Part shown: one piece after another, positions 11,338 to 46,452 of the stretch
Position numbering within the stretch: position 1 is the first letter of the stretch
Layout of the letters: the number at the start of each line of letters is the position of its first letter
From: Luminiphilus syltensis NOR5-1B
GTDB taxonomy: Bacteria > Pseudomonadota > Gammaproteobacteria > Pseudomonadales > Halieaceae
Length of the DNA stretch: 64,000 bases
Assembly: GCF_000158175.1 (NCBI RefSeq)
Contig: NZ_DS999411.1
Span: 2,450,714-2,514,713, forward strand
Direction of reading: 5' to 3'
The notes under the pieces: model-generated
Database searches by the model: none
What the model was told of the DNA's origin: nothing
Seen by the model: only the letters and a program-made list of their open reading frames with translations
Position numbers and translations under genes: made by a program

Positions 11338-13410
11338 ATGGAGTCAACGGTGATAGGAGCCAACGGCCGTTTTGGGTTGTTACACGGCCTCTGCGGGAGA
11401 ACTGGCATCCCCTTTAGCCAGCCCATGTTCGCGATGATATTTTGCATGGCAGCAACGTCAGCGTTGGGGCAGTCGAGCGGGGCATACAATATTGCGGTGC
11501 TCGATGATGCCCGCTACCGGGTGGGTTTTGAGGACCTGACTGCCAGTGAATTGCCAATACCGTCTGGGCAGCTGCGCCTGAGTCACCGAGGCTTGCCCAT
11601 CGACATCGACGTTTTCGATGGAGGGGACGGGCGCTTTGGGCCTGGTGATTATTTCCATTTTACCGGTAGACGCCTCCGGGGCGATCATTCCTGGTTCGAT
11701 CCTTACAGCGCTTACAACGTCTATCAGCTCACCACAGAGATCTCTCGGCCCGCTGCCGTTGTCGGAAAAAAGCCGTCTCCGAGTGTGCCGATTATTGAAC
11801 ATCTCGAAAAGGAGCTGATGCGGGTGGCACTGCCTCGCGCCACTGAACCCGCGGCGCTTGAGCCCTGGTACTGGCAGCGTATCAGCCAGGTAAAGGGCGA
11901 TCATTTTAGCTATCGGCTCTCCTGGTCAGCGCCACCCAGGCGTTTGCGGGTGGCGTTGGCGGGCTTGACGGATGATCAGAATGCCACCGTAGCAGGAGTG
12001 CCGCAGCATTGGCTTCAGGTATACCTCGCGGGAAGGCTGGTTGCACAGTCAAGCTGGGAGGGGCAGGAGCCTGAAATTGTTGTCATTGACGACCTTCAAC
12101 TGGAAGAAACCGATGCAAGTGGAGCGCTGCTCGAGCTTCGGATTCCACAACGAATCGATCCGAAAACGGGACGTCAACTTGTCGATGCCGCATTGCTGAA
12201 CTGGATCGAACTGGAGTACCCAGCAGGCGACGATCACCAACATACGATACTGGACCGTTCTGCAAGCCACCGTCTCAGGGTGCCCGAGGGCGTTCTGTCT
12301 CCCGAGCGCGTGATCCCGGTTTCGCCTCAGCCTGATCTTAAAAGTCCCTCGTTGCAGGCGGATTATCTGATGATTGTCCACAGTACGCTGCGGACTTCAC
12401 TGGAGCCGCTGGCTGAATTCCACCGTAATCGCGGTCGAACAGTCGTCGTTGCCGATGTGGAAGCGATCTTTGACCAGTTCAATAATGGGATTCACGCCCC
12501 TGACGCCCTGCGCAGGTTTGTTCAGTACGCGCGTAGCCATTGGCAAAAACCCGCCCCTGCCATGTTGCTGCTTGTCGGCGATGCCAGCTGGGAGCGGGCA
12601 ACACCCACCGGGAATTCCCGCAATCTGGTACCGACCGAACAGGTCATGGTGCAGGGTCATTTTGCCGCCAGTGATAATCGGCTTGTCAGTGTTGAGGGAG
12701 ATGATTATCTACCCGACCTCGCAGTCGGGCGGTTACCGGCGGGTAGCCCTGAGGAGCTCGACCGCATGGTGAATAAGGTGATTGCCCACGGATCCCGGGC
12801 CTCAGCTACCGATAAGTCGCTGCAGGCCGTTTGGATTGCTGGCGAGGATCGTTCATTTCAGAAAATAACCGACGCACTGGCGCGGCAGGCAGAAATCAAA
12901 GGCGCGATAAACACCCGGATTTATCCGGCAGAAAATCAGGGCCAGAACGAGGTGTTTGCGGCGCTCAACGGCGATGCTGATGTCGTGCATTTTCTCGGTC
13001 ACGGTGGGCGGTTTGTCTGGCGGACCGGTCCCCCGGATTTGCGGACTGCTGCAGACCTTTTCAGTGTAGAATCCCTCACAGATCTTGACGCGAAAAAAGA
13101 TCTGCCGCTGGTGTTGAGTATGACCTGCTCTTCGGGCCCGTTTGATCATCCTAACGCCAATTCCCTAGCCGAGGTGTTCTTAACTGCCGAAAATCGCGGT
13201 GCCTTTGCTGTTGTGGCTGCTTCCTGGCGAGTGGTCCCGGTTCACGCTTTCAGTGAACGGTTGCTGCGCTTTTTACTTATTCCCGGTACGCCCATCGGTA
13301 CTGCGCTTATGAAGGCCAAACGCGCCGAGCGCCACCGCAGTCTTGTAGAGTCGTATAACCTTCTGGGTGATCCGGCGATGCCGCTGCGGTTCGGGACGAG
13401 CCATGAATAG
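11338..13410 (+). CDS. C25-family (gingipain-like) cysteine peptidase, secreted
   Basis: This protein of about 690 aa is a clan CD cysteine peptidase. The catalytic pair is visible: His in FLGHGG (about residue 555) and Cys in SMTCSSG (about residue 597), preceded by the gingipain-type subdomain with ADYLMIVHS, LLLVGDASW and LPDLAVGRLPAGS. The N-terminal third is a beta-rich propeptide or accessory region. A signal peptide ends near SALGQ. The start is uncertain: ATG at 11338 and GTG at 11350 (GGAG upstream) both give sensible signals, and the longer frame from 11203 overlaps the divergent small gene. The next gene overlaps its last codons. It could process exported proteins or peptides made by the neighbouring operon (inference). 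Confidence 0.82.
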   Translation: MESTVIGANGRFGLLHGLCGRTGIPFSQPMFAMIFCMAATSALGQSSGAYNIAVLDDARYRVGFEDLTASELPIPSGQLRLSHRGLPIDIDVFDGGDGRFGPGDYFHFTGRRLRGDHSWFDPYSAYNVYQLTTEISRPAAVVGKKPSPSVPIIEHLEKELMRVALPRATEPAALEPWYWQRISQVKGDHFSYRLSWSAPPRRLRVALAGLTDDQNATVAGVPQHWLQVYLAGRLVAQSSWEGQEPEIVVIDDLQLEETDASGALLELRIPQRIDPKTGRQLVDAALLNWIELEYPAGDDHQHTILDRSASHRLRVPEGVLSPERVIPVSPQPDLKSPSLQADYLMIVHSTLRTSLEPLAEFHRNRGRTVVVADVEAIFDQFNNGIHAPDALRRFVQYARSHWQKPAPAMLLLVGDASWERATPTGNSRNLVPTEQVMVQGHFAASDNRLVSVEGDDYLPDLAVGRLPAGSPEELDRMVNKVIAHGSRASATDKSLQAVWIAGEDRSFQKITDALARQAEIKGAINTRIYPAENQGQNEVFAALNGDADVVHFLGHGGRFVWRTGPPDLRTAADLFSVESLTDLDAKKDLPLVLSMTCSSGPFDHPNANSLAEVFLTAENRGAFAVVAASWRVVPVHAFSERLLRFLLIPGTPIGTALMKAKRAERHRSLVESYNLLGDPAMPLRFGTSHE

Positions 13411-13762
13411 GGCAGTGGGCGTGAGTCTGGGGATGGCGATTGTCGTTATGCTCGGCTGGTGGCTTTTTGTGCGCGCACCGGCGCCCAATGTCATCCGCTG
13501 GACCACGCAAAGTGAACACAATACCTTTGCCTATGTGGTGTTTCGTGGCACAAGTCGAGAGGGGCCCTTCGAGCGCATCAGCACCGAAATGATTCTTGGT
13601 GCCGGAACAACTGACCTACCCCAGCGCTACCGATTCAGCGATGCTGATATTGAGTTCGACGCAGTATATTGGTACTACGTCGAAAGCGTCTCGCTGTCGG
13701 GAGAACATACGCGCCTGACGCCCGTGGGTGCTTCACGGCCCAAGTCACGGCTTTCCTGGTAG
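13403..13762 (+). CDS. Membrane-anchored FnIII-like small protein
   Basis: This 119-aa protein has an N-terminal membrane segment (VGVSLGMAIVVMLGWWLFV) followed by one fibronectin-III-like module: VIRWTTQSEHNTFAYVVFRG, then REGPFERIS, and YWYYVESVSLSGEHTRL. The same module recurs at the end of many secreted bacterial proteins carrying C-terminal sorting signals. The ATG at 13403 sits inside the last codons of the C25 peptidase gene (stop at 13410), so the two are translationally coupled and probably partners at the cell surface. A frame from 13367 exists but lacks a good start. Confidence 0.7.
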   Translation: MNRAVGVSLGMAIVVMLGWWLFVRAPAPNVIRWTTQSEHNTFAYVVFRGTSREGPFERISTEMILGAGTTDLPQRYRFSDADIEFDAVYWYYVESVSLSGEHTRLTPVGASRPKSRLSW

Positions 13763-13834: not shown

Positions 13835-14674
13835 CTACGGTGCGCAGCGTTTGAATACCAGCCCCGTGTGGGCGAAATGCCCGGGCTCAACCATGGCTCT
13901 GGCCCTGTCGGTCAGGTGCTGACTGAGCGCAAAACCCCGCTGCTCAACTTTGCTTACCCAGTAGCTCGACGGCTGACAGTTCACATGGTGCCAGCCCGGC
14001 TGACCCGGGGGTGCCGCCGTCATGAAAATGTACTGTTCGGCGGTCGCGAAGGTGGCCAAAAAATTCTCGCAATAGCGCTCCTCGACGTGTTCTACAAACT
14101 CGCAGGACCAGACCATGTCGAAACGGCGCAGGGGATGGTAGGGCCCCGCGGTGAAATCGTGCCTGACATGGTTTTTGGGTATCGCCGAGTCGCGTAGTGC
14201 CTCCGCACTGCCATCAACACCCTGTACATCACAGCCGAGCTCGAGAAAGAATCCAGCCGCGTGGCCCTCGCCGCAGCCCACATCGAGAACGCTCGTGACG
14301 CCCAGTTCTTCAACAATCCAGCGCCAAAGCGTCGGCGACCAGGTCAGTGGGTCGCCGTTCTCGATACTGAGTTGGTGAGCATCCGGATGCCGTGCGCTGA
14401 TATAACCGCCGAGATGGCCCTCGCGAATATTCATGGCCGGATGTTCCGGGTTGACGAACTGTAAATCGATCACATCCACTGACGAGACGGTCAGAGCCTC
14501 CCGGCCGTCATCCAGGGGTAGTTGCAGTAGTGGAGTGGCTGTCGTCGGCTCTGGTGACACGATCTGCGCACGTTGCTCGCGTAACCACCTAAGCTCCGGG
14601 TCGTCGGGCGCGAGATCCAGTGCCAACCGGTGGCCACCCCTGAGCGTGACGCGGAGCTGAACGGGAGCGGCCAT
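13835..14674 (-). CDS. Class I SAM methyltransferase with operon-specific N-terminal domain
   Basis: This 279-aa protein has two parts. Residues about 4-75 form a beta-rich domain also found at the start of the oxygenase at 16586-17566: GG-R---L-LA-D-PEL, a gap, then LQLPL-DGRE-L--S. Residues about 115-275 are a Rossmann methyltransferase with motif I VLDVGCGEG (129-137) and motif IV-like FDMVWSCEFVEHV, similar to small-molecule or sugar O-methyltransferases. The ATG at 14674 overlaps the stop of the GT60-like gene (TGATG). It is the last gene of the operon and probably methylates the glycan or peptide (inference). The shared N-domain may dock on the precursor or on partner enzymes. Confidence 0.82.
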   Translation of the reverse strand: MAAPVQLRVTLRGGHRLALDLAPDDPELRWLREQRAQIVSPEPTTATPLLQLPLDDGREALTVSSVDVIDLQFVNPEHPAMNIREGHLGGYISARHPDAHQLSIENGDPLTWSPTLWRWIVEELGVTSVLDVGCGEGHAAGFFLELGCDVQGVDGSAEALRDSAIPKNHVRHDFTAGPYHPLRRFDMVWSCEFVEHVEERYCENFLATFATAEQYIFMTAAPPGQPGWHHVNCQPSSYWVSKVEQRGFALSQHLTDRARAMVEPGHFAHTGLVFKRCAP

Positions 14675-15591
14675 CAAATAACGAGTCGCAGCCCGGCCTC
14701 CCTGGCCCAGTCGTCGACCGTTCGCTCTGTGCCCAAAGTATAGCGACCAAGAATCTTCGGGTCCTCTTTGCCGAACAGCAGCGCATGGAGGCGTCGGACC
14801 ATCTCACGAGTATTGTCGTCCTGCCACGCATCGGTCTTGGATTCCCATACCTTGTGGCGATTGCCACCGGGATAATTGTTGTAGTCGAGGTGCCAGATCT
14901 GGATTTCGTCGGGCAGATAAATATCGTAACCATGGGTATAGGTCCGGGCCGACAGCGCTGACTCGTGTCCCGCATTGATCATCGCCGGATCCTCAGGAAC
15001 CTCCCGTATCCAACGTCCATGAGTGAATACAAAGTTGCAACAGACCAGGGCTGTTTTCTGGTGCGGTTCAGTTTTCCGCTTTTCTGACATCTGAATATCG
15101 ATCCATCCCACGGGAGGAATCAGCTCACAGCGCATGAGAGGTACACCATCGTAGTCGGTTCCGGCCCAGGGGATTACCACCTTGCCCTGATCGTCAAAGG
15201 TGAAGGGCGGGGAGCTTGTTGTCAGCAGCGGTTTTTCGCTGGGTTTACTCTCCAGCTGCTGAATGAGATTGACATCCCAGCCCTCGGCAAACCAGGTGTG
15301 TGAGTCGACGAGCAAGTGGTACTCCTCCCCGGCGTAAAGTTTCTGTACTTCGGTCCGGGACCAGCCATAACCGAGACTGGACTGGTAGGGGTACTTGCGA
15401 ATTCTGAAGCGCGGGTCCTCCAGCCATTTATCGAGGTTTTCAGATTCATCGGCCTGCCAGCAGATGCCAAAAGTCAGTCGTTCCGGGTGACTCGCCTGTG
15501 ACAATGCCGCTTCAATGGTGAAAGGCAGGAATTGATCCCGATAGGAGGCTATTGAAACAAAGATTTTGGCTGTATCGGCATTGTCAGTCAT
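14674..15591 (-). CDS. GT60-like (Skp1 GlcNAc-transferase family) glycosyltransferase
   Basis: This 305-aa enzyme belongs to the family that includes Dictyostelium Gnt1, which adds GlcNAc to hydroxyproline on Skp1. Motifs: IFVSIASYRD at the start, the metal-binding D-S-H at residues 96-98 inside LLVDSHTWFAEGWD, NFVFTHGRW, and HGYDIYLPDEIQIWHLDY near the end. No signal or membrane segment is seen, so it should act in the cytoplasm. ATG at 15591 overlaps the stop of the PqqD-fused gene by four bases. A paralogue lies at 22013-23014. The sugar and acceptor here are inferred, not shown. Confidence 0.85.
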   Translation of the reverse strand: MTDNADTAKIFVSIASYRDQFLPFTIEAALSQASHPERLTFGICWQADESENLDKWLEDPRFRIRKYPYQSSLGYGWSRTEVQKLYAGEEYHLLVDSHTWFAEGWDVNLIQQLESKPSEKPLLTTSSPPFTFDDQGKVVIPWAGTDYDGVPLMRCELIPPVGWIDIQMSEKRKTEPHQKTALVCCNFVFTHGRWIREVPEDPAMINAGHESALSARTYTHGYDIYLPDEIQIWHLDYNNYPGGNRHKVWESKTDAWQDDNTREMVRRLHALLFGKEDPKILGRYTLGTERTVDDWAREAGLRLVI

Positions 15592-16589
15592 TTACTGTGA
15601 ACTTCCAGTTTGAGGGCTTCGGTAGATTTGAGGCCTATGACCGTATTGATAACGTCTGGCGCCATCAGTTCATAGGGAGTTTGATAGCGGTTTTCGAGTT
15701 CAGCAATGATGTCCTGCACCGTTTTTTGGCCATCACACAGCTGCCAGATTTCACTCGCCGACCGATTCAGTGACATCAGGTGGTCAGCGGCGCCCAGCTC
15801 AAGATAGTAGTGATCCAGGACGCACGCCTGTCGTACTCCGGGTTGGCGCACCGGGCGCAGCGTGGTCAGGTAAGCACCTGTGGACCGAGCGCTGTCATAG
15901 GTTGTCGACAGTTCCGGATAGGCCGGATCATCGGGTACGGCTATTCGTTGCGACAGCCCCTGCGTATTGACGGTGAGTTGATATTCGGTGGCAGCGATGG
16001 CGAGAGCAATATTCAGATAATCCGACTCGGGCTGCGAGTCCGCGCCGGGCATAGTCCGCAGCAACCCCAGCAGCTCCAGCCACCGCGGGCAGATTTTCAA
16101 TAAGTCCGTTGAATGTATTAGCAGTGGTAGTCTAATTTTCGGCAGCGGCAGGTCTCGCTGCACACAGTAGGCCCGCAAAGCACTGTAAGTGTCGGGGAGG
16201 CCAAAGGGCCCCGGCCCCTCGGGAAAGTTCTCCCAATGACAGGCGATGGCTTTTCCCGGGCTTAGCTCCCTGGTAACCGCCTCCCGCATTACACTGCCGC
16301 CGCCCATGACCAGCACGGTGCTGTCGAGGGGCTCCCGTAGCAGCCATTCGAGAAGCGCCGCGGGAACGTTGTAGCCTTTGAAGGTGTCGTCGATATAGGG
16401 GTGGCGCTCCCAGGGCAGGGCAGCCTCCACCCGCGCGAGGGCGTGTCTCGGAAGCTCCAGCCCCGGGCGACTGCAAAGCAAACGCAGCAGTTCTCCCGAC
16501 TGGCCGCACTGCTGCCAGCTGACTTCCAGAAGCTCTGCTTCACGCTGTGCCTCATCGCCAGGATCGTTGACCAGTATCGTGATGATCAC
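15588..16589 (-). CDS. HPAT-like glycosyltransferase-type domain fused to C-terminal PqqD
   Basis: This protein of about 333 aa has a C-terminal PqqD domain (about 255-330: LMSLNRSASEIWQLCDG, then a helix and the last strand), the fold that binds RiPP leaders. The N-terminal part resembles hydroxyproline O-arabinosyltransferase/peptidyl-serine galactosyltransferase proteins in its layout (YNVPAALLEWL; PLLIHSTDLLKICPRWLEL; a helix near 188-205). Where the metal-binding DxD should stand, around residues 94-99, it reads VMGGGS, so catalysis may be lost. GTG at 16589 overlaps the upstream TGA (GTGA), which decides the start over an upstream frame at 16637. It could be a scaffold that brings precursor to the active enzymes. 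Confidence 0.72.
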   Translation of the reverse strand: MIITILVNDPGDEAQREAELLEVSWQQCGQSGELLRLLCSRPGLELPRHALARVEAALPWERHPYIDDTFKGYNVPAALLEWLLREPLDSTVLVMGGGSVMREAVTRELSPGKAIACHWENFPEGPGPFGLPDTYSALRAYCVQRDLPLPKIRLPLLIHSTDLLKICPRWLELLGLLRTMPGADSQPESDYLNIALAIAATEYQLTVNTQGLSQRIAVPDDPAYPELSTTYDSARSTGAYLTTLRPVRQPGVRQACVLDHYYLELGAADHLMSLNRSASEIWQLCDGQKTVQDIIAELENRYQTPYELMAPDVINTVIGLKSTEALKLEVHSK

Positions 16590-17566
16590 GATGCGTTCCA
16601 GTCGAGATGGATTCGGGCGCAATTCATGTGGCCCCAACCTTGTGCTTCTGGCGGATGCTCAGGATCGTTGCGCCATATCCAGTTGGTCACTGCAAATCGG
16701 CTGTCCTCAAAGCGTCCGCTTGGGCAGCGTATCCGGAGCAGCTCGTGAAACGTTTCGCTGGGAAAAACAACCATGCGGTTGGATACCGGCTGGATATCCT
16801 GAAAGCTGGTTCCCTGCTGGCGAACGCCATCGCGCACCACGCTGTCATAGAGCCGAAGCGCGCCGCCGGTAAAGGGCCTTGGTTCTCTGCTGATGTAGTA
16901 CACGCAGGTGAGCATCCGGTCCAGTCTTGTGCGCTCATCAGAATCGATATGTGCGCGAAAATAGTGGCCGTCATTGCTCGCTGTTAATTGGGATTCCACG
17001 CGTTGGACCGGAAAGAAATCGATCCCCAGGCCTTTGATGATGTAGGGGAGCCAGGTCAGCAAGCGGTTGCACAGCAGCCTCGAGTGAGCAGCTTCCGAAA
17101 AGTTGAGGATGGCGAGGTTTTTCCGTGAGCGTATTTCTCCAGTAGAAACCGTGCCGGCATCGAAGGCGTCTTCCTGCATGAGCGCGTAGGACAGCATATC
17201 CCGGTGCTCATAAGGACTCAGGAAGTCATCGATCACCATGTGCGGCGATCGATTAATCGTCATTGGTGCCGACGCCTGGGCGCCTTGGGCGGCATTACTG
17301 GCAACGGCTACGTCAGGCTGGTCAAACTGCACCAGCACTGGCGGTCGCGTGCTGATAGCCACCAGCTGGGCGGTACTGAAACTCAGAGATTCCTCGCCCC
17401 CTCGCAACGGCAGTTGCACGAATTCCTCTTGACTGTCCGTCCGCGACCTGCGCCCACCGAGTACCGCAAGCAGGCGGCTTAATTCTGGCGAGTCCGATGC
17501 CAGCTCCAGCGTTTCTCGTTGTCCACCCTCCAGCAGCAGGGTCACCTCAATCAGCCTTGGCTCCAT
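16586..17566 (-). CDS. Prolyl-4-hydroxylase-like 2OG-Fe(II) oxygenase with extra N-terminal domain
   Basis: This 326-aa enzyme has the P4H-type double-stranded beta-helix. Iron ligands are His206 and Asp208 in YFRAHIDSD and the distal His274 in ETFHELLRI, with a basic residue around Arg290 placed for 2-oxoglutarate. FTGGALRLYD is also typical. Residues 1-75 carry the operon-specific domain shared with the methyltransferase at 13835-14674. Expected reaction: hydroxylation of a prolyl side chain with O2 and 2-oxoglutarate in the cytoplasm. The proline-rich precursor two genes upstream of its neighbour is the obvious candidate substrate (inference). It starts 13 bp after the O-FucT-like gene's stop. 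Confidence 0.85.
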   Translation of the reverse strand: MEPRLIEVTLLLEGGQRETLELASDSPELSRLLAVLGGRRSRTDSQEEFVQLPLRGGEESLSFSTAQLVAISTRPPVLVQFDQPDVAVASNAAQGAQASAPMTINRSPHMVIDDFLSPYEHRDMLSYALMQEDAFDAGTVSTGEIRSRKNLAILNFSEAAHSRLLCNRLLTWLPYIIKGLGIDFFPVQRVESQLTASNDGHYFRAHIDSDERTRLDRMLTCVYYISREPRPFTGGALRLYDSVVRDGVRQQGTSFQDIQPVSNRMVVFPSETFHELLRIRCPSGRFEDSRFAVTNWIWRNDPEHPPEAQGWGHMNCARIHLDWNAS

Positions 17567-17579
17567 CGGTGACCCTCAA

Positions 17580-19577
17580 TCAATCCTGAGAAACGGCATC
17601 TGAATCAGCAAACAGTGACTCGAGGGGGGCGGACGCGCTCTCGAGATGGCTGTAACAAAGCTGGTAGACAGGGATAGATTCAGCGAGCTTGCAAAGATTC
17701 TTTATGGTGGTATCGCGATCACTCGGGAAAGTGATTGATGAACGGGTCATTTCCGCCACCGCCGCCGATGGCGACAGTTGAAACAATGCGGTGTGGTTTT
17801 GGAGTTGGCGAGCGCAGTAAACAATGGCATCGATAGTGGGATTTCCAATATCCTGTAGCGATGGCTGGCCGTAGTTGTTGTCGATCCGTGTGAAGGGTAC
17901 GAGGCTCCAGTCCTGAGTTCGCAGCGGTAGTGCAGTATCACCGAGAAGCTGCCAACCATCACGACCCAATGCATCAGCCAGCCCGATGCCGGCATCCTCC
18001 GCGGACCAATCACCCAGTACCAGGATAGTCTTGCCGCTCCTACGTAAAGCCATTCCCGCGAGCCAGCAACAATGCCTGCGGGTACGGGCAAGCAGCGGAA
18101 TGATTTTTTTCAGTATTGCGCCCGGCACCTCTGCTTCCTCCGCTACTCGGGTGGTGGGGGCTTCGGGAAGCCTGACTAGAAATGCTTTCCCTAAACTTTT
18201 GACCTCGATGTCGGCGATCACATTGGTCTCTGGATGCTCGATATCGTCGTAAAGCATTTCGGTCAGCTTTTTCGCAAGTCCCGGCACGGTACTTTTGATA
18301 CGGAAGCGCAAACCCTCAAAGTAGGCGTAGGCGTTTTCAGATGTCTGCGGTATGGACTGTGTCGAGCCCTGTTGTCCTGCGGACCCAAAACGTCCTGAAG
18401 CGAGCACCTCCGGGGTCAGAAAACTCTCCGGCCATTCGCGCATCCACGCAGGATTGATCAGTGGACTGTAATGATTCCAGGAGTACGGACCGTCGAACTC
18501 AGGGACCATGATTCCCTGCTCCAGGGGGACGCAATTACTGACCGGATGACTGCCCCGTTCGAGGGTGTCGCCAGGGTCCGGCAATTCATTCCAGAGAAAC
18601 TTAAAAGGCTCGTGCACGCCTCGGTTTCCCCGTAGCCGCTGGATCATGCCGGTGTAGGTACTGGTCATGGAGCCGATGAAATCTTTCGAGTAGGCAGCCA
18701 CCAGCTGAGAAAGATAAGCCAGTGCCAGGCTGTCATTCTGCGGCAGCGCCGCAAATTCAGCGGCGTAGTAGTCGAGGATATGGTGATCGACGAACACGTG
18801 ATCGTTGAAGCATTGTTTGATGTCATGAAAAAAAGGATCGTCCCGCTCGTCAGTACAGATGAGCAACCGGTCATCGCGGTCGAAATGGTGATCCATGGCA
18901 TCAATGGCTTCCCAGGGCTGCCTATCGAGCACGGTTACGCCATAAGTCACCTTGAAATCACCTCTGCGCATATGAATCGCGTTGAAATCCCCAAGGTCAA
19001 ACGCCACTTTTTGCGCGAGCTCTGCGTAGGGCGCCTGCGCCTGCATTCGCGTCAACAGGTTGTAGACGGCTTTGCGGTGCTCGGGATCCAGGTAAAAAAG
19101 GTAGGAATAGAAGCAGAGGTTGTTGCGATGTTGATCGCGTCCGGGGACAAGGGGCAGCTCGGACACCCGAAGCAGGGGAACTTCAGCCAGGCGAGGGTCC
19201 TCGCCCACCCACTCGGTACGACCGCGAGCAAAATCCACGGCATCCTGTGAGCCGATATCGACAGAGCCCGGTACGTGAAACACCGTGTCCATGAGGCTGT
19301 GCTGCGTCAGCTCCTCGGCATCGAGATGTGCCACTTCATTCTCGGCTGATTCCGACCAGGGCACCGGGATGTCCATGAGATCCGTGACCCGGCTGGGACG
19401 GGAGTTGTCCACCCGACCGTCATAGTCGACGAGATTTGCAAGCGGCGGCGTGTTGCCATCCAGAAGCAAGAACCGCTTGGTGAGAAATGCCATCATCACG
19501 GCACACTCGATGGACATGATGCTGTTGCTGAGGCCGACCCGGCCCGACATGTAATTGGTAAAGAACAGCTGTCGCAT
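17580..19577 (-). CDS. O-fucosyltransferase-like protein fused to degenerate HPr-kinase-like domain
   Basis: This 665-aa protein is a two-domain fusion. The N-terminal half resembles protein O-fucosyltransferases (GT-B): an opening loop with GRVGLSNSIMSIECA, the sugar-nucleotide motif IHMRRGDF with Arg204/205, LLICTDERDDPFF, and FIGSMTSTYTGMIQRLRG. The C-terminal region (about 400-655) resembles HPr-kinase-related proteins of PqqD systems, with CCWLAGMAL, ILVLGDWSAEDAG and DGWQLLGDTA, but the Walker A GxxGxGKS is replaced, so it is probably non-catalytic. ATG at 19577 (GAGG upstream, just after the previous stop) is chosen over the frame from 19649, which overlaps the upstream gene. Confidence 0.78.
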   Translation of the reverse strand: MRQLFFTNYMSGRVGLSNSIMSIECAVMMAFLTKRFLLLDGNTPPLANLVDYDGRVDNSRPSRVTDLMDIPVPWSESAENEVAHLDAEELTQHSLMDTVFHVPGSVDIGSQDAVDFARGRTEWVGEDPRLAEVPLLRVSELPLVPGRDQHRNNLCFYSYLFYLDPEHRKAVYNLLTRMQAQAPYAELAQKVAFDLGDFNAIHMRRGDFKVTYGVTVLDRQPWEAIDAMDHHFDRDDRLLICTDERDDPFFHDIKQCFNDHVFVDHHILDYYAAEFAALPQNDSLALAYLSQLVAAYSKDFIGSMTSTYTGMIQRLRGNRGVHEPFKFLWNELPDPGDTLERGSHPVSNCVPLEQGIMVPEFDGPYSWNHYSPLINPAWMREWPESFLTPEVLASGRFGSAGQQGSTQSIPQTSENAYAYFEGLRFRIKSTVPGLAKKLTEMLYDDIEHPETNVIADIEVKSLGKAFLVRLPEAPTTRVAEEAEVPGAILKKIIPLLARTRRHCCWLAGMALRRSGKTILVLGDWSAEDAGIGLADALGRDGWQLLGDTALPLRTQDWSLVPFTRIDNNYGQPSLQDIGNPTIDAIVYCARQLQNHTALFQLSPSAAVAEMTRSSITFPSDRDTTIKNLCKLAESIPVYQLCYSHLESASAPLESLFADSDAVSQD

Positions 19578-19585
19578 AGTGTGCC

Positions 19586-20200
19586 TCAGGTGCCCACGGG
19601 ACGGTAATGGACGAATAGGCCCACGTAGTAATCGCCAACGAGTGGCCACGGGCGGCCATGAATCAGGCGCGCGCCTTCGTAGTAAATAAATTCCCCGGGC
19701 GAGAGATTCACTTCGTGCGCCTCACCGTAGATGTCTTCGATATAAAGTGGCCAGGGCTCATCGAGGCGCGAGTCAACACAGATCGTGGAGCTGATGATAT
19801 GCGTGGTGCCGCGATCGACGTGATTGTGCAGATAACTGCCTCGCTGATAGGCACGAAACCCATAACAGGCAGAGTCGATAAGCTCCATCCCGGACCACGC
19901 CTCGTGTGCAGGCCTCAGAGTGTCGCAGATCGCCGCATTGAAGCTCGGATCTTCAAAATGCATGGCGGGGATAAAGTCAGCGTCTGCCGTTGCCAACTCG
20001 GGGATGGCTTGTTCCGGGCGAAACTGGCCCGCGCTAGCGGCAAGCTTATCGCGCAGCACGTTGTGCAGCTCGTCGGGCAGCTGCCCCTGCGCAAACCCGA
20101 GACCCAGATAGGGTGCCTGAGCCTGGTGTTGCCGCGTCTGCTGTGCCAGCCAATCCGGCATATCGAAAGGGACCCGATTCGAGGCCTGATCACGCATCAT
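19586..20200 (-). CDS. Second prolyl-4-hydroxylase-like 2OG-Fe(II) oxygenase
   Basis: This is a compact 204-aa oxygenase. Iron ligands are His127 and Asp129 in HNHVDR and the distal His181 in LIHGRPWP; CYGFRAYQRGSYL precedes the first pair, and YYVGLFVHYRP ends the core. It lacks the extra N-terminal domain of the other operon oxygenase. The distal segment GEFIYYEGARLIHG is typical of bacterial P4H-like enzymes acting on peptides. Its start overlaps the end of the PqqD-glycosyltransferase by a few bases (Met at 20200 or 20197). Two hydroxylases in one operon could serve different prolines or different hydroxylation steps (inference). Confidence 0.83.
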   Translation of the reverse strand: MMRDQASNRVPFDMPDWLAQQTRQHQAQAPYLGLGFAQGQLPDELHNVLRDKLAASAGQFRPEQAIPELATADADFIPAMHFEDPSFNAAICDTLRPAHEAWSGMELIDSACYGFRAYQRGSYLHNHVDRGTTHIISSTICVDSRLDEPWPLYIEDIYGEAHEVNLSPGEFIYYEGARLIHGRPWPLVGDYYVGLFVHYRPVGT

Positions 20201-21575
20201 CGCTACCGAAAATCCTGCTGCGTGCGTTCAGAGCAAGCTCCATGAAGCGGCGCTCAACCGGACCCTCGGCGATCTTGCGGAAACTCTCAATATCGGCGTC
20301 CAGGAAGCTCTGCTCAGCGAATAGCTGCTTGTGCCACTGGGAGTTGCTGAAGGGGCCGACGGCGCCATCGTTACGATCGGTGTAATAGTGGCAGAAGCTG
20401 CCGTCGGCAAGGGTGTCCGCGGCGGGCTCCTGGACGGCAAACTGCTCAGTGTCGAGCAGCTCAACATCGAGCTTGTTAAACTGCATTGCCATCGCGAAGC
20501 AGGCCATCTCGGCAACCCACATGCCGCTGGGTGGCAGCTTCAACAGCTTTCCCGACAGATAGAGTATCTGCAGAAACCGGAAACAGTCCTTGACCAGCTT
20601 GCCATCATCAGCCTGAAGCGCTTCACCGGTCACAAAGACGTTGACGCCACCCGCCTTGAAGTCGCCCTCGAAGCCAAGGGCGTCGAGAAGTTTTGGCAGG
20701 GACAGGCCGCGTGAATCCCTGGTGGAAAAGTGAAAAAACCGCTCCTGGCCAATTATCCAGTTGGCCGCCAGAGCGTTACCTTTGGGGAACAGTGGCGCTT
20801 GGAGGTCGCCATAAAGGAAAATATCCGTATCCATCAGGCAGACGAGATCATCCGGCGCCGTATGGTGGCGAATCACGTTCAGAGCTTCCACGCGATTCAT
20901 CGGCACATAGCGGTCGCCGCCATCAGCAAAATCGATATCGTGATTGTCACCGGGGCTGGCGCCGGTGTGGTGTTGTACACCATAGAGATTGAGGATGTTT
21001 TGCAGCGCTTCGGAGATGGGCTCGTGGTTGTTGCACACCACGACCTGAATGTCCCAACCCGCGGGCAGTTGCCCCATGAGGGATTCGAACATGATCGCGA
21101 GTTGCCAGTGGAAGTAGGGGCGATCTTCGATGCCGTGGACAATGCGTACCCGGCCACGATCAGCGTCACGCCGGGGTGCCGTGATGACACCGGACTGAGC
21201 CGCATGACTGTCACTCGGCGGCGCGGGTTCGAGCAGATCGAGCTCGCGAAACTGAAACAGTGCGGCGCTGAGGTCCGACATGATCTGCAGATCGTCGCCA
21301 CTGAACTGCTGGCGCAGCGCGCTGAAGATCGTTTCGAGCGTATGGTTGCCATCACACAGTCGCCAAATGGCGGCACCGGTGCTGTTCAGTGCATAGACGG
21401 TTTCACCGGCTCCAGGCAGGAGCACGAGCTCATCGGATACCGAATAACTGGTAAAGCCTGCCTTTTGAAGGGGGCGAGCTTGGGGGTGGCTGCTGTTGGT
21501 CAACGAATCAGTGCGGTCTGACCGAGCGAGTGCACGCGGCTCGTCGTCGGCGGAGCTATCCGCCGCGGTGTCCAC
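20190..21575 (-). CDS. PqqD-fused HPAT-like glycosyltransferase
   Basis: This 461-aa protein has an N-terminal PqqD/RRE domain (about 38-118: ETVYALNSTGAAIWRLCDG, HTLETIF) and a glycosyltransferase domain (about 140-430). The glycosyltransferase has an intact DTD at 249-251 in LVCLMDTDIFLYG, PMNRVEALN before it, FKAGGVNVFV after it, and GMWVAEMACFAMAM, an order that follows hydroxyproline O-arabinosyltransferases and SGT1-type peptidyl glycosyltransferases. RRE plus glycosyltransferase in one chain suggests leader-guided glycosylation of the precursor encoded ten bases upstream. The start is GTG at 21575 with GAGG eight bases before it. The sugar donor is unknown. Confidence 0.82.
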   Translation of the reverse strand: MDTAADSSADDEPRALARSDRTDSLTNSSHPQARPLQKAGFTSYSVSDELVLLPGAGETVYALNSTGAAIWRLCDGNHTLETIFSALRQQFSGDDLQIMSDLSAALFQFRELDLLEPAPPSDSHAAQSGVITAPRRDADRGRVRIVHGIEDRPYFHWQLAIMFESLMGQLPAGWDIQVVVCNNHEPISEALQNILNLYGVQHHTGASPGDNHDIDFADGGDRYVPMNRVEALNVIRHHTAPDDLVCLMDTDIFLYGDLQAPLFPKGNALAANWIIGQERFFHFSTRDSRGLSLPKLLDALGFEGDFKAGGVNVFVTGEALQADDGKLVKDCFRFLQILYLSGKLLKLPPSGMWVAEMACFAMAMQFNKLDVELLDTEQFAVQEPAADTLADGSFCHYYTDRNDGAVGPFSNSQWHKQLFAEQSFLDADIESFRKIAEGPVERRFMELALNARSRIFGSDDA

Positions 21576-21585
21576 CGCGGTCGCC

Positions 21586-21960
21586 TCAGCTGATATCGAA
21601 GTCTGAGATTTCTACCGGAATGGGCTCTGCGGTTGCCACTGTGGGGAATGCCGTCGGCGTTAGGGTAGGTGCAGGCGTAGGGGGCTGTGGGACTGCTCCC
21701 GGCGCTGCAGTCGGCAGAGGGGCTGTTGCCGGAACTGTGGGGGCGGGCGTCTGAGCCTGCGCGCGATTCGGCGCTACCATGCCACCCAGCGGCACGGTCA
21801 GGATAACGGGGGCTACCCAGGCGGTTGAGAGCACTTCCCGGCGGGTTAAGCCACTGCCGCCAGTATCGCTCTCGTCCGGCGCGTCGTCGGCATTCATTTT
21901 TGCACGCAGCGCCGCAATTTCTGCCAGCAACTCTTCCTTTGTTTTGTCTGAATCACTCAT
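21586..21960 (-). CDS. Candidate precursor: Tat-like leader plus Pro/Thr/Ala-rich glycomodule tail (124 aa)
   Basis: I recognise no named family. Residues 6-22 form a charged amphipathic helix, 25-37 an acidic Gly/Ser linker, and 38-69 a Tat-like signal (LTRREVL, then hydrophobic WVAPVILTVPLGG) with an AQA cleavage site. Residues 70-118 contain 15 Pro and 10 Thr in 49 positions, mostly as TP, AP and PT pairs (QTPAPTVPATAPLP), followed by an acidic tail EISDFDIS. It is the only small ORF inside an operon of hydroxylases and glycosyltransferases. Tat export would allow modification in the cytoplasm first. GGAG six bases before the ATG at 21960 supports the start. Precursor status is inference from context and composition. 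Confidence 0.72.
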   Translation of the reverse strand: MSDSDKTKEELLAEIAALRAKMNADDAPDESDTGGSGLTRREVLSTAWVAPVILTVPLGGMVAPNRAQAQTPAPTVPATAPLPTAAPGAVPQPPTPAPTLTPTAFPTVATAEPIPVEISDFDIS

Positions 21961-22012
21961 AAGCCGCTCCGCCTTCGAAAAACCCGTATCGCCTCAGAGA
22001 ATATCAGGCTAT

Positions 22013-23014
22013 TCAGGCCGGTAAAAGCCCCCGAGCCTCACTCATTTCGATGCATTTTTGCCAGTCGGCGGCCCCGTGAAGGGTCACCGGGTCGGGATTG
22101 GTCCCGGTAAATACATCCGGATGTGCTCTTTTCTGAGTCAGGTCGAAGCCTGCGTAGCGTTCATAGTCGCGAAGTGTTCGGTGGGGGCCGAGGCCGTAAG
22201 GGCCCAGGGAGTAGCCGCCCGGGCTGTAAACAAGCCGGTGCAGGCGCGCAAAAGCGACAGCATTGCGCTGCCGGATGACCGCCTCGCCGTGTTCCCAATG
22301 CCGCCGGGGTGGCGCGCCGGTATGCAACATGTGCCAGGCGACGACCTCATCAGGGAGAAAGAAATCGTAGCCCCAGGTGTAGGAGCGCACGGTGACGCTG
22401 AATTCCTCGCCCCAATAATAATGCTCGGGATCCTGGGGCACCTCGATGTTCCACTGCCCGTGGCTGAACGCAAAGTTACCGTTGATGAACCGGGTCCGAG
22501 CCTGGGATTGACGGTTGGGCGGGCCGAAATCGAACCAGGGCGCCCAGCCATAGTCGGCGTTCCAGTCGCTAACCCGGGTGGTGGGTACCCCCATTTCCGT
22601 TTTCCGGTGCAGCCGACCCTGCTGGTCATAATAAAAAAGTGGGGCGTTCATGGTGATAATCGGCTTTTCTGCAGGCAGCGCCTCCAGCATGTCGATCAGC
22701 CGGGTGTCCCAGCTGGGTTCGAACTTCATATGGGCGTCAACCTGAAGGGTGTAGGGCTCGCCGCGCCACAGCGACTGCACCAGGTTACGCGCCCAGGGTC
22801 CGCCGCGGCTCTCACTGACGGGGCGCTCTATCAATCGAAACCGAGCATCGGTTTTGAAAGGGTCGAGGTCGATGGGTGCCAGCGGGTCCTGTTGCGCGCA
22901 AATGCCGAAGCTGAGTTGCTCAGGCATCGCCGCCATGTCGATGCAGTCTTTCACGGTCCGGGGCAGCTCGGGGTCTGCGTAGGAGGCAATGGCCACGAAA
23001 ATACGCGCTGTCAT
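22013..23014 (-). CDS. Second GT60-like (Skp1 GlcNAc-transferase family) glycosyltransferase
   Basis: This 333-aa paralogue of the enzyme at 14674-15591 shares IFVAIASYADPELPRTV, the metal-binding D-A-H at residues 93-95 in LQVDAHMKFEPSWD, GNFAFSHGQW, and WGYDFFLPDEVVAWHM. The C-terminal extension (about 290-333) is not present in its sister. No membrane segment is seen, consistent with a cytoplasmic enzyme. ATG at 23014 overlaps the stop of the upstream fusion gene by four bases, and the precursor starts about 50 bp downstream of its stop. Two copies suggest two acceptors or two successive sugars (inference). Confidence 0.84.
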   Translation of the reverse strand: MTARIFVAIASYADPELPRTVKDCIDMAAMPEQLSFGICAQQDPLAPIDLDPFKTDARFRLIERPVSESRGGPWARNLVQSLWRGEPYTLQVDAHMKFEPSWDTRLIDMLEALPAEKPIITMNAPLFYYDQQGRLHRKTEMGVPTTRVSDWNADYGWAPWFDFGPPNRQSQARTRFINGNFAFSHGQWNIEVPQDPEHYYWGEEFSVTVRSYTWGYDFFLPDEVVAWHMLHTGAPPRRHWEHGEAVIRQRNAVAFARLHRLVYSPGGYSLGPYGLGPHRTLRDYERYAGFDLTQKRAHPDVFTGTNPDPVTLHGAADWQKCIEMSEARGLLPA

Positions 23015-24603
23015 CGTTGGGACTCAAGTGGATAGCCCGCTTGCCAGCTGTTGCGATCGTAGCCAAAGTAGTCGAAGTCTTGGGAAAATCGCTCGGCAAC
23101 CCGTTGTGCCAGGGTTTCGTTGAAGGCCTGGTGCAGGGTGCCGTGATCCGGTGAACCGTTCGATGCTGGCAGCACTGCGGGCGGCAGCCCCATTTGTTCG
23201 ATCAGAGTCTGCCAGCTGTCGCCCAACCTGTGAAAGTCCAGCCAATGGCTGACCCGCGATACGTCGAGCATCTCGGTGATCGGGATGTCCTGCATCGCTG
23301 CCTGAACCTCGGGTACCGACGTCGGTTCGCAGACCCAGTCAATGTAGCGCTTCCAGCTCAGGCTGAGGAATATTTCGGGATTGCCGCCGTGCTTGCGGTG
23401 CTTCCAGAAAGACCAAAGTCGCTCGTAGGGATTGCGGTGTGCCGCAACGAGCCGATAGTGCGGAAATTCTTCAGCGGCTTCGGTGAAGTAATGAAAAGCC
23501 CAGCCGCCACCGCGAACCTTGCGTTCGGCCAGGGTGGGGGAATCGGGATCGATCCGATTCAATACCTGCGTCACCGAATTGCTGCCGGTGCGGGGGACTT
23601 CGAAAAATATCAGTTGGTATCGATGTGAAATAAACATTGAGTCGGACGAAAACGCTCCCTGATGGGTCGATTCTTGCACGCTTGGCGATGAATCAACCAT
23701 TCCTCTAAGTTCACCATGCCGAAGTTCCGGAAAGACATCCAGTGCTTCGGGACAGTAACGCAGGAATGCCTGCTGTTTGCTTACAGGCAGACGACTGATC
23801 TGATGACAGCCAAAACTGCGCTCGGTAAATGTGTCCTGGGTAGAAAATCGCCCGGCTTGCGCCATGCTGGCGACCCGGTGCCCGACGAGATCGAGATGAA
23901 ATGCGAAATAACCGTCCTCGCCGGCCGGCCAATGCGTGGGCGGGAACCGCTCAAGGCACCCGACAGAACGCGACCAGTCCCGCAGGCTGAAGCCGCCACT
24001 ACCGCCATCGATGGTCAATCCAACCGGGCGCTGGCGGCCCCACCTGCTGCCAATGTAATCGTAGGCGGTGAAGTCATCGATACGGTAGCTCGATCCCGGG
24101 CAGCACATCGAGTCTGTCTGGAAAATCAAAATCTTGCCCCGTCCCAAGATCTGATCCCAGAACCGGCGTGACAGCATGAGCTGGTTGTAGTAGCGAAGAT
24201 CAATGGGTGCCCTGATGTTCAGTTCGGTAGTGGTCAGCTGCCCGTCGTCGATAAGTCTGGCAATCGGCCCTGAGTAGATGAAATTGCGATTTTCAGCCCC
24301 ATGAAACAGCTGTACCGGAATGGCACAGTGGCTGATGATGTTGTGCAGCACGGTGTGCAGCGCTGGATGCTCGCGTGTTTCGACAATAACGCCCCAGAGC
24401 GGCTCGCCAGAGGGCTCCGGATCGAACTCAAGATGCGCAAAGGCCTCCGATACCACACATTCGGTTGCATCTGGGAAGATCTTGCTCAGTGTACTGCCGA
24501 GGTCGGCGATATGCTCGCTGCCAAGGTGTTCTCTTGGGGTGCCAGTCCGGAGCGTGATTTGCTGCGCCAGTATCGAAGCAGACGAGAGTGAATCTGGTTT
24601 CAT
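23011..24603 (-). CDS. DUF5672 glycosyltransferase-like domain fused to a sulfotransferase
   Basis: This 530-aa fusion is the first gene of the operon. Residues about 75-290 match DUF5672 (putative glycosyltransferase), with RYYNQLMLSRRFWD, the acidic QTDSMCC, TIDGGSGGFSLRD, and WPAGEDGYFAFHL. Residues about 320-525 form a PAPS-dependent sulfotransferase with the 5'-phosphosulfate loop FFEVPRTGSNSV and the 3'-phosphate motif LVAAHRNPYERLWSFW. One chain could therefore add a sugar and sulfate it. ATG at 24603 has AGAGG upstream and gives a normal N-terminus; a frame from 24699 adds 32 residues without support. Sulfotransferases also lie at 26284-26961 and 40400-41050. Confidence 0.82.
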   Translation of the reverse strand: MKPDSLSSASILAQQITLRTGTPREHLGSEHIADLGSTLSKIFPDATECVVSEAFAHLEFDPEPSGEPLWGVIVETREHPALHTVLHNIISHCAIPVQLFHGAENRNFIYSGPIARLIDDGQLTTTELNIRAPIDLRYYNQLMLSRRFWDQILGRGKILIFQTDSMCCPGSSYRIDDFTAYDYIGSRWGRQRPVGLTIDGGSGGFSLRDWSRSVGCLERFPPTHWPAGEDGYFAFHLDLVGHRVASMAQAGRFSTQDTFTERSFGCHQISRLPVSKQQAFLRYCPEALDVFPELRHGELRGMVDSSPSVQESTHQGAFSSDSMFISHRYQLIFFEVPRTGSNSVTQVLNRIDPDSPTLAERKVRGGGWAFHYFTEAAEEFPHYRLVAAHRNPYERLWSFWKHRKHGGNPEIFLSLSWKRYIDWVCEPTSVPEVQAAMQDIPITEMLDVSRVSHWLDFHRLGDSWQTLIEQMGLPPAVLPASNGSPDHGTLHQAFNETLAQRVAERFSQDFDYFGYDRNSWQAGYPLESQR

Positions 24604-24762
24604 ACCCTGCCTCTGTTTTGCCCCGTGCACGTTCCTGCCCCGTTGCCATGGTCGGTCATCGCACGTGCAGTCCTCTGCTTGCACAGCAAACGCTGTCATG
24701 CGGGTACCGTTGTATCATTGTGCAGTGGCAAATAGCCAAACCCAGGGCGCTCTATTTCTTAC

Positions 24763-25200
24763 ATGGCATCTGAGCACAACATCATAAAGTCTGCAGCAAT
24801 GAAACGCTGGAAAATTCATATTCCACCTGTGCCGAAAGTTCACTTCATGGGTGAGCTCAAGTCGGTCCTGTTCGGTGGTGTGACCACCTCCGATGCGGCA
24901 GAACACTGCGCCTGCCCGGAAGAGGCGGACTTTATACTGCTGGACTTCCGGCACCTGCTGCACGACTACTATCGCATCACCCGACCTGAAAAGACCATCA
25001 TGGTGGATTACCGTGACCAGCAGACCCACGTATTCCCTGCGCCCCTTTGCCTGTATTTCAAGCGCAGTGTTGTTCGCCACCGGAGGGATGGGCTTGAGGA
25101 CTACAAGCGCCGGGTAATTCCAATTGGCTACTGTGTAAAGGAGCCCTATCGACAGGCAGCATCACAAGCACCTGTCAAACGTGATATTTGTGTCGCCATT
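24763..25200 (+). pseudogene. 3'-truncated glycosyltransferase-like gene
   Basis: The frame (open to 25272) starts well (KRWKIHIPPVPKVHFMGELK) and continues through DFILLDFRHLL, MVDYRDQQTHVF and YFKRSVV, a pattern I associate with poorly characterised glycosyltransferases that continue for another 200 or so residues after VIPIGYCVKEPYR. Here the reading passes into sequence that is the antisense of the neighbouring GT4 gene at about 25190, and only 169 codons remain. Both genes therefore seem cut at one recombination point. The family assignment is tentative, but truncation is well supported by the tail-to-tail overlap. Confidence 0.5.
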
Positions 25201-26177
25201 TGCTCTGGGTTCTGTAACAGCTCGATAATGCGTTGGGCATACCCCTGCGCATTATTGGGGTGGGTAACGTAACCGTTAAAGCCATCGGAAATCAGCTCTT
25301 CCTGGGTCGCATCACCGCCGCTGTGGGTCACTACCGGCAGGCCAGTTGACATTGCCTCACCGATTGCGACACCAAACGACTCACCGAGGTTGGATCCGTG
25401 GCTGAATACATTGATGCCGTACAGAAATTCACTGAGTGTCTTGTTATCGATCGCCGGTGGAAATTCCCGGACCATATCGAGGCAGTGAATCGCTTTGATT
25501 TTTTGCCGATACTCGTCCGGGAGGCCAATGATGTGGAAGCGCGCATCGGGTAGCACCTCTCTGATGTGCGGTAGGCTATCGACGTTGATATCGTGCCATT
25601 TTGCCGCCGCTGCGCGACTGTGACGACCAAAGATGGGTCTGGACAGGTCGCGGGGCCGTGAGTGCTGATCCCAGGATCTGGTTTCAATAGGCATGTACAT
25701 GGCGACACACTTTTCTGGCGCGTATTCCGCACCGGCGCGCGCGGCGTAGATGTGCCGCTGTGCCTTGCTGAGCAGGATGTGTCGGTGAATCTTATGGGTG
25801 TCCGCTGACGGATCGAAATGGCCGAAAATATTATGTTCGACAAGGATTTTTACGCCGGCGTTGGTAAACGTTTTTATCAGCTTTTCATCGGTGACGCCCA
25901 TGCGATGAAAGTGCACGATATCAATGCCTCGCGAGCGGATCCATGCGGCCATTTCGACCGGGTTTTGATTGATAAAAATCTCGGTGGCAGAGCGCTTAAA
26001 AGCCGCGAGGCGTTCACCACCGCGCCAGCCTGCCGCGAATACCGCGTACTTGTTTTTTGGCAGGTGTTCAACAAACAGCTGTGCCGTTTTCTCGGTGCCA
26101 CCCATGGACCACTGATTTGTCCACTCGAGGACCTTGATCAAGGCGACTGCGCTGCATAATTGGCTTGCAATGAGCAT
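25146..26177 (-). CDS. GT4-type glycosyltransferase, probably 3'-truncated
   Basis: This 343-aa GT-B protein shows an N-terminal acceptor domain (IKVLEWTNQWSMGGTEK, DIVHFHRMGVT) and a donor-binding domain with VFSHGSNLGESFGVAIGEAMSTGLPVV, the GT4 E-x7-E region. The expected final helix is shortened: after RIIELLQNPEQMATQ the chain runs into CDAACR, which comes from the opposite-strand fragment. It lacks perhaps 20-40 residues, so activity is uncertain. The start is also unclear; TTG at 26141 would give the more typical opening LIKVLEW, while ATG at 26177 adds 12 residues. Confidence 0.7.
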   Translation of the reverse strand: MLIASQLCSAVALIKVLEWTNQWSMGGTEKTAQLFVEHLPKNKYAVFAAGWRGGERLAAFKRSATEIFINQNPVEMAAWIRSRGIDIVHFHRMGVTDEKLIKTFTNAGVKILVEHNIFGHFDPSADTHKIHRHILLSKAQRHIYAARAGAEYAPEKCVAMYMPIETRSWDQHSRPRDLSRPIFGRHSRAAAAKWHDINVDSLPHIREVLPDARFHIIGLPDEYRQKIKAIHCLDMVREFPPAIDNKTLSEFLYGINVFSHGSNLGESFGVAIGEAMSTGLPVVTHSGGDATQEELISDGFNGYVTHPNNAQGYAQRIIELLQNPEQMATQISRLTGACDAACR

Positions 26178-39850: not shown

Positions 39851-39857
39851 ATTGCCG

Positions 39858-41050: not shown

Positions 41051-41055
41051 GGGAA

Positions 41056-42267: not shown

Positions 42268-42284
42268 ATCCCCGGATCTCTATT

Positions 42285-46391: not shown

Positions 46392-46452
46392 TCCTTAGAG
46401 ACTGCCCACTGTGCTACGATCCTGCCCGTTTTTAGCGAATTGATAAAAAGCG

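Follow-up and report, generated by a model that had tools for sequence, protein, structure and literature searches.

A candidate pathway for a Tat-exported, extensin- or mucin-like glycoprotein in Luminiphilus syltensis and four other genomes

Serine-rich-repeat adhesins are repetitive surface proteins that undergo multi-step O-glycosylation in the cytoplasm (GtfA/GtfB) before export through the accessory Sec system. Hydroxyproline-linked glycoproteins are regarded as characteristic of plants, algae and certain protists. Skp1 of Dictyostelium and Toxoplasma is modified by the prolyl hydroxylase PhyA and by Gnt1, a hydroxyproline N-acetylglucosamine (GlcNAc) transferase of family GT60, which also includes a polypeptide alpha-GlcNAc-transferase of Trypanosoma cruzi (PMC6939170). 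Plant extensins and peptides are arabinosylated by prolyl 4-hydroxylases together with HPAT (GT95) and with RRA and XEG113 (both GT77), the arabinosylation enzymes being described as Golgi membrane proteins (PMC8012813). Pathways to ribosomally synthesized and post-translationally modified peptides (RiPPs) may use tailoring enzymes fused to a RiPP recognition element (RRE), and RRE-glycosyltransferase fusions have been noted earlier (PMC7470986, PMC12710340); the main text of the former source does not contain the words "hydroxylase" and "proline-rich", nor that of the latter "hydroxylase" and "Tat". Here we describe an operon from a 64,000-nucleotide stretch of Luminiphilus syltensis NOR5-1B (contig NZ_DS999411.1, positions 2,450,714 to 2,514,713; the window), which probably encodes a leader-guided cytoplasmic pathway making an extensin- or mucin-like glycoprotein exported by twin-arginine translocation (Tat).

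The operon bears a partial likeness to each of these systems. With Skp1 glycosylation it shares a PhyA/PHD-type hydroxylase and GT60 enzymes, presumably cytoplasmic, but it has many enzymes, PqqD domains and a second kind of N-terminal domain (N-dom), and, instead of Skp1, a repetitive substrate that carries an export signal: the co-conserved candidate is a protein with a Tat signal and Pro-Thr (PT) repeats. The Pro-rich substrate, the prolyl hydroxylase, homologues of one glycosyltransferase (P3) with HPAT matches below the cut-off and, in three of the other genomes, proteins of PF03407, a family which we take to correspond to GT77, recall plant extensin arabinosylation, from which the locus differs in the fusion of PqqD or N-dom to several enzymes and in the Tat-type signal of the substrate. 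The PqqD-enzyme fusions and a conserved N-terminal leader are shared with RiPP pathways, whereas the substrate is here a large repeat protein with a Tat-type signal. As in serine-rich-repeat adhesins, a repeat glycoprotein would be finished in the cytoplasm and then exported; those adhesins, however, have Ser repeats, accessory Sec and neither hydroxylases nor RREs, while the present proteins have Pro/Thr and Tat. By analogy only, the cluster thus resembles RiPP systems in recognition, Skp1 and extensin glycosylation in chemistry, and serine-rich-repeat adhesins in finishing before export.

The initial annotation of this DNA had stated that no such combination was known to be described. Among the papers listed by our literature searches, with bioRxiv outside their scope and subscription journals thinly covered, there was likewise none on a comparable bacterial cluster for hydroxyproline glycoproteins. 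The system appears new as a whole, because in no described kind that we found is a Tat-exported repeat protein recognized by its leader, hydroxylated on proline and glycosylated.

The ten-gene operon and its candidate substrate

Ten minus-strand open reading frames (ORFs) lie end to end at positions 13835-24699 of the window, with P10 furthest upstream and P1 last (Table 1). With starts matched to homologues (ATG at 19577 for P5, whose longest ORF runs from 19649, and GTG at 16589 for P3, whose longest ORF runs from 16637), neighbours overlap by 4-11 nt or are separated by 8-52 nt. The ten overlapping or near-touching genes of the initial annotation are borne out by these ORF calls and spacings. 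Its two GT60-like enzymes (P2 and P9), its methyltransferase (P1) and its DUF5672-sulfotransferase (P10) all have Pfam matches, and its small Pro-rich protein is P8, which is rich in Pro and Thr and recurs with eight of the enzymes, including the hydroxylases, in all four other genomes with the cluster. The gene cluster as noted there is confirmed. The interpretation placed on it is supported by our sequence comparisons, with corrections on HPAT, HprK and the type of product that are given below.

A pattern-based scan of a collection of genome contigs with P7, which was not exhaustive, returned two relatives: locus L046 in a metagenome-assembled genome titled Gammaproteobacteria bacterium OFTM78 (G535; P7 60% identical) and locus L047 in one titled Candidatus Binatia bacterium PL24a_bin.3 (G536; 54%). 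Alignment searches found full-length P7 in 3/148 genomes of the class of G536, namely G536 itself and G602 and G603, neither of which the pattern scan, run on a different collection, had returned, and in one of 250 genomes of the order of G535, which was G535 itself; the other matching genomes (13 in the class, 12 in the order) matched over the PqqD region alone. The genome of the window was the sole carrier of full-length P7 among 146 of its relatives, with PqqD only in nine others, and among 398 phylum-sampled genomes, with PqqD only in two others. P7 had no match in plasmids, and a viral scan with A5 gave 58 pattern matches, none of them a relative.

The other genomes compared are thus one record titled Gammaproteobacteria (G535) and three from the class of the record titled Candidatus Binatia. 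BLASTP counts cover their cluster loci. P1 to P7 and P9 are present in 4/4, with best matches of 34-79% identity (71-79% for P2, 63-74% for P9, 43-58% for P1), and the gene order of the window is largely kept; P6 of G536 is divided between two contig ends. Because these eight genes recur in all four genomes, largely in the same order, their grouping is far beyond chance. P10 was found at none of the four loci, each of which has a different sulfotransferase adjoining a substrate gene. G602 carries, in one direction, substrate A, P7, P6, P5, P4, P3 and P2, then a double glycosyltransferase with PqqD and a fusion of sulfotransferase, N-dom and methyltransferase, and on the opposite strand substrate B, a sulfotransferase, GT60a and an epimerase. 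Two substrates each (A and B) are encoded in G536, G602 and G603.

In P8 a charged N-terminal leader precedes a Tat-type RR motif, after which come a hydrophobic stretch with AQAQ at its end and a Pro/Thr-rich tail. The leader and signal regions of eight substrates align with 14 invariant columns, including RR-x-x-L and W-x-x-P-V, and the RR motif is present in 8/8, as expected of ribosomal precursors with a conserved leader. Substrates in the other genomes retain the leader and the RR motif; in most of them the PT-repeat tail is expanded, and the largest has 331 aa. Beyond the signal, PT dipeptides exceed the expectation from composition in 8/8, most commonly at a spacing of four residues: P8 has 6 against 2.7 expected, and the other seven substrates have 47/13.1, 37/12.6, 20/7.2, 9/2.0, 4/1.0, 31/11.5 and 31/8.1 (observed/expected). 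In the tails Thr and Pro are about equally abundant. The C-termini fall into IPVE(I/L)(S/T)DF(D/E) in the window and G535, ALF-x-FDD in substrate A of G536 and G603, and a hydrophobic segment followed by an acidic tail in substrate B of G536, G602 and G603. P8 is a predicted Tat substrate by its RR motif, its hydrophobic stretch and the TatC of the genome. TatC is encoded in 5/5 genomes with the cluster and also in 11/14 control genomes, so that its presence shows only that the Tat route exists.

The leader tracks P7. Leader model A14 gave near-complete matches (E <= 2.5e-28), two per genome, in exactly the 3/148 genomes with full-length P7, and one near-complete match in 1/146 relatives of the window, its own genome and the only carrier of full-length P7 there. 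At most 40 first-look candidates were scored per genome in the scan of the 148, many of which had more; these genomes are also related by descent, and the leader-P7 match, although strong, does not amount to 148 independent trials. Weaker partial matches (E 2e-8 to 0.01) occurred in 10/148 and 7/146 further genomes, and weak ones (E 0.1-1.3) in G000, G535 and G536. Partial matches in other genomes of the Binatia class, covering about model positions 1-29, were considered as docking tags and set aside: eight loci were viewed and one was readable (L113), where the match heads a protein with a PAS-sensor-like sequence (read by eye), while the other seven yielded no ORF with the motif. Directly upstream of substrate A in G603 (L101:16529-18211) and G536 (L047, upstream of 3041) lies a second protein, which is rich in Cys, carries TPT-type repeats and has Arg residues after its hydrophobic C-terminus.

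The modifying enzymes

By sequence and by predicted fold, P4 resembles a PhyA-type prolyl hydroxylase. The best match of its profile in the PDB was 6t8m (2.6e-10), followed by EGLN1 (2e-5); the 6T8M entry is DdPhyA, the Dictyostelium enzyme that hydroxylates Skp1 at proline (PMC7864055). A Foldseek search with the P4 model (predicted local distance difference test score, pLDDT, 65) gave PHD2 at 7e-9, and its best 50 of 1463 matches were all PHD2/EGLN1 or the prolyl hydroxylase of Pseudomonas putida, which acts on EF-Tu (PMC7864055). H206, D208 and H274 of P4 are invariant in 5/5 members. P6 shows the invariant pattern H127-x-D129...H181 in 4/4 members and is homologous to the C-terminal half of a prolyl-hydroxylase fusion in G535, features that suggest a second, putative 2-oxoglutarate (2OG)-Fe(II) oxygenase. 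This fusion (L061:9501-11162), about 15 kb from the G535 cluster, combines N-dom, a prolyl-hydroxylase domain and the P6-like half. Its prolyl-hydroxylase domain matches solved prolyl 4-hydroxylases (5iax at 6.9e-22; 2jig and 3gze at 3e-19), CrP4H (3GZE) being presumably of algal origin. The name CrP4H for 3GZE is that used in PMC7864055. Of the two P4H-like oxygenases initially annotated, P4 is upheld by Pfam, PDB and Foldseek matches, and P6 by motif and homology.

N-dom is an N-terminal domain of about 75 residues common to P1 and P4. It has no Pfam match, occurs joined to PF03407 in both G602 and G603, and gave no match when searched in phages. A P4-like 2OG oxygenase lies near LanM/Nif11 RiPP genes on a Pseudanabaena galeata plasmid (L106), and a protein aligned over both the N-dom and the oxygenase of P4 lies near non-ribosomal peptide synthetase genes on a Gloeocapsa plasmid (L105).

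The modifying enzymes P3 and P7 carry the RRE-type PqqD domain in 5/5 members each, as had been annotated. The HPAT-like character also ascribed to both finds support in the P3 family, only through homologues and below the cut-off, and is not supported for P7. HPAT (PF23452) was matched by 4/5 members of the P3 family, at 1.1e-4 (22.1 bits), 0.0018, 0.13 and 0.27, none of which reaches the cut-off of 23.9, while P3 of the window matched PqqD only; among the five P7 members HPAT appeared once, at E 0.36. A PF23452 search of the window's own genome gave no match, and its control was also silent, which makes it uninformative on absence. D249 and D251 of P7 (DxD) are invariant in 5/5. Alignment between the profiles of P7 and P3 is confined to their PqqD parts, which leaves a common origin of the two glycosyltransferases without support.

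P2 and P9 are GT60 GlcNAc-transferase-like by their Pfam matches. The O-FucT part of the fusion annotated for P5 stands, with matches in 5/5 family members (best 6.9e-7; the window copy, at 0.0094, is below the cut-off). Its HprK part is weak: there was one match (TIGR04352, 7.3e-4), the G536 member gave none at 0.001, and the strict P-loop GxxxxGK[ST] is found in 0/5 members. The G535 homologue (L046:11915-13930) has GDLGASGKS at this place, one residue longer than that pattern, a stretch which the other four lack. The HprK-like end may, judging from these motifs, represent a kinase fold that has decayed or been altered; the P5 profile had no PDB match at E 10. PF03407 proteins are encoded in G535, G602 and G603, with a free one in L046 at 7.9e-28.

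Proposed pathway and alternatives

P8 is encoded with a conserved leader and a Tat-type signal. By precedent of PqqD/RRE systems, the PqqD domains of P3 and P7, perhaps with the N-dom of P4 and P1, would bind the leader and gather the enzymes on one substrate. P4, probably with P6, would then hydroxylate Pro, or residues of another kind, within the PT segment. On hydroxyproline and/or adjacent Thr, the two GT60 enzymes, P3, P7 and the O-FucT-like P5 could build O-glycans, perhaps from GDP-L-galactose and UDP-xylose-derived donors made nearby, and the methyltransferase and the sulfotransferase may modify these glycans. The finished protein would leave through Tat, with signal peptidase removing leader and signal. 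At the cell surface a peptidase of family C25 might, more speculatively, process or anchor the C-terminus in the two genomes that have it nearby. The product is probably a surface repeat glycoprotein and not a small natural product.

The latter alternative corresponds to a true RiPP natural-product cluster, from which a short glycosylated, hydroxylated peptide would be excised and released as a signal or antimicrobial. It would account for the RRE-type PqqD fusions, for a window P8 of only 124 aa and for the P4-like oxygenase near LanM and Nif11 precursors on the Pseudanabaena plasmid, and RRE-glycosyltransferase fusions have been reported in possible novel RiPP clusters (PMC7470986). We nevertheless regard it as quite unlikely: the substrates bear a Tat-type signal and, with their repeats, are up to 331 aa long, substrate B of three genomes has the hydrophobic segment and acidic tail described above, and Pfam revealed neither an exporter nor a cyclase in the ten genes, the remaining window being read by eye only. 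As regards recognition, the label "RiPP-like" in the initial annotation is apt; for the product, a Tat-exported repeat glycoprotein is the better reading. Even less probable, to the point of being very doubtful, is an ordinary surface-polysaccharide locus for lipopolysaccharide (LPS), capsule or exopolysaccharide, with P8 as an unrelated small exported protein. Such loci commonly hold mixed glycosyltransferases, a sulfotransferase, a methyltransferase and genes for nucleotide sugars; upstream lie a gene of GT4 type and one for a sulfotransferase (25146-26177, 26284-26961), and LPS-core-like genes were seen by eye at about 39.8-47.9 kb of the window. The GT60 and HPAT families, however, are known to act on polypeptides (PMC6939170, PMC8012813), PqqD is fused to glycosyltransferases, a prolyl-hydroxylase-like enzyme belongs to the operon, the substrate leader tracks P7 exactly across the 148 genomes, and the ten genes include no flippase or polymerase by Pfam. 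A check for LPS-type families, as proposed with the initial annotation, did not place the glycosyltransferases there: two are GT60, and the P3 family approaches HPAT through its homologues. The other check proposed there, for joint conservation of the hydroxylases and the small Pro-rich gene, was likewise favourable, as both recur in 4/4 other genomes.

A variant that overlaps with the Tat-exported glycoprotein reading concerns the modified residue. The oxygenases may hydroxylate Thr, Asn or a sugar rather than Pro, with glycans on Thr/Ser as in trypanosome mucins; GT60 also holds the T. cruzi polypeptide alpha-GlcNAc-transferase (PMC6939170), Thr rivals Pro in the tails, and P6 has no place among families. 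We consider this unlikely, as the nearest solved relatives of P4, by sequence and fold, are prolyl hydroxylases, and G535 adds a domain near solved prolyl 4-hydroxylases (6.9e-22 to 3e-19). Were the chemistry to do without hydroxyproline, the novelty would be smaller, a variation on a known type.

Several observations weigh against a hydroxyproline-glycoprotein pathway. Alignment of P4 with DdPhyA brings the HxD columns together but leaves the distal His two positions out of register. P6 matched no convincing Pfam family in 4/4 members, with a single chance-level match at 0.15, and its profile retrieved from the PDB one nitroreductase at 1.1, which we took as chance. Window P3 reads GGGS in place of the DSx/DLR of its four homologues, which suggests loss of the putative catalytic Asp, and the glycosyltransferase fold of P7 is only putative, its AlphaFold model having a mean pLDDT of 49. 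GT60 alone is no pointer to hydroxyproline chemistry, because bacterial GT60 is not rare (27/398 phylum-sampled genomes, the window's own included, plus 8 plasmid records). P8 of the window is the shortest and least repetitive A-type substrate, with none of its 6 PT preceded by Ser or Asn; the substrate A ORF of G602 ends after the repeats and lacks a C-terminal tail like that of G536 and G603, and substrate B of G602 holds only 4 PT. C25 gave no match in G536 and G602, and in G603 one partial match below the cut-off.

A wider reading, which we offer tentatively, sees PqqD and N-dom as two recognition domains for one leader, and the locus as a complete bacterial system for hydroxyproline-rich glycoproteins, perhaps the source or a relative of the eukaryotic Skp1 and extensin modules. 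Its assembly line would consist of prolyl hydroxylases and of GT60, HPAT-like, PF03407 and O-FucT-like transferases, delivering a sugar-coated PT-repeat protein through Tat. If true, RiPP logic and extracellular-matrix glycoproteins would meet in one bacterial operon, hydroxyproline glycans could be made in E. coli with a small soluble system, and the origin of Skp1 and extensin glycosylation would become testable.

Neighbouring genes

Table 1. Predicted features of the operon and its surroundings in the window, with supporting matches (E values unless stated otherwise)
Feature	Position	Strand	Assignment and evidence
P1	13835..14677	-	N-dom + S-adenosylmethionine-dependent methyltransferase; PF08241 1.7e-8 (Pfam)
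P2	14674..15591	-	GT60 GlcNAc-transferase-like; PF11397 2.6e-44 (Pfam)
P3	15588..16589	-	HPAT-like glycosyltransferase (call via homologues), C-terminal PqqD 2.5e-11; putative catalytic Asp replaced by Gly
P4	16586..17566	-	Prolyl-hydroxylase-like 2OG-Fe(II) oxygenase; PF13640 1.3e-16; N-dom at N-terminus
P5	17580..19577	-	O-FucT-like glycosyltransferase + HprK-like C-terminal region, no P-loop in window copy
P6	19586..20200	-	Putative second 2OG-Fe(II) oxygenase; motif and homology
P7	20190..21575	-	N-terminal PqqD (RRE-type) 6.7e-13 + DxD glycosyltransferase-like domain outside Pfam families
P8	21586..21960	-	Candidate substrate, 124 aa; no Pfam match
P9	22013..23014	-	Second GT60 GlcNAc-transferase-like protein; PF11397 1.9e-41 (Pfam)
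P10	23011..24699	-	Fusion of DUF5672 7.8e-22 and Sulfotransfer_2 1.5e-7 (Pfam)
Epimerase	9969..10979	-	GDP-mannose-3,5-epimerase-like; PDB 2c59 2.2e-99
Peptidase C25	11203..13410	+	Gingipain/PorU-like; PF01364 3.4e-75; NF033707 149 bits, cut-off 420
Small protein	13367..13762	+	N-terminal hydrophobic stretch; adjoins C25; 52% to L062:9032-9427 over residues 39-126
Glycosyltransferase	25146..26177	-	GT4-type; upstream of operon
Sulfotransferase	26284..26961	-	Further sulfotransferase; upstream of operon
Decarboxylase	27102..28067	-	UDP-glucuronate decarboxylase-like; PDB 2b69 2.5e-128

The epimerase-like protein is a possible supplier of GDP-L-galactose, and a homologue lies near the cluster in 3/4 other genomes, that is, in 4/5 with the window. 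UDP-xylose could possibly be supplied by the decarboxylase-like protein; at the other four loci this query was answered only by the epimerase, at 26-30%. C25, possibly an enzyme that processes or anchors C-termini, is kept with its small partner near the cluster in one of the four other genomes (G535). LPS-core-like genes (GmhB-, heptosyltransferase- and RfaE-like; read by eye) occupy approximately 39852-47883, about 15 kb from the operon. Adjoining the G535 cluster, L061:17795-18736 encodes a protein whose C-terminus we take to resemble the IPTL-CTERM sorting signal. An MBOAT-like acyltransferase with SGNH-like neighbours (read by eye) was seen close to the cluster in G535 (L062:7544-8983) and G602 (L098:14576-15985); acetylation may add a further step.

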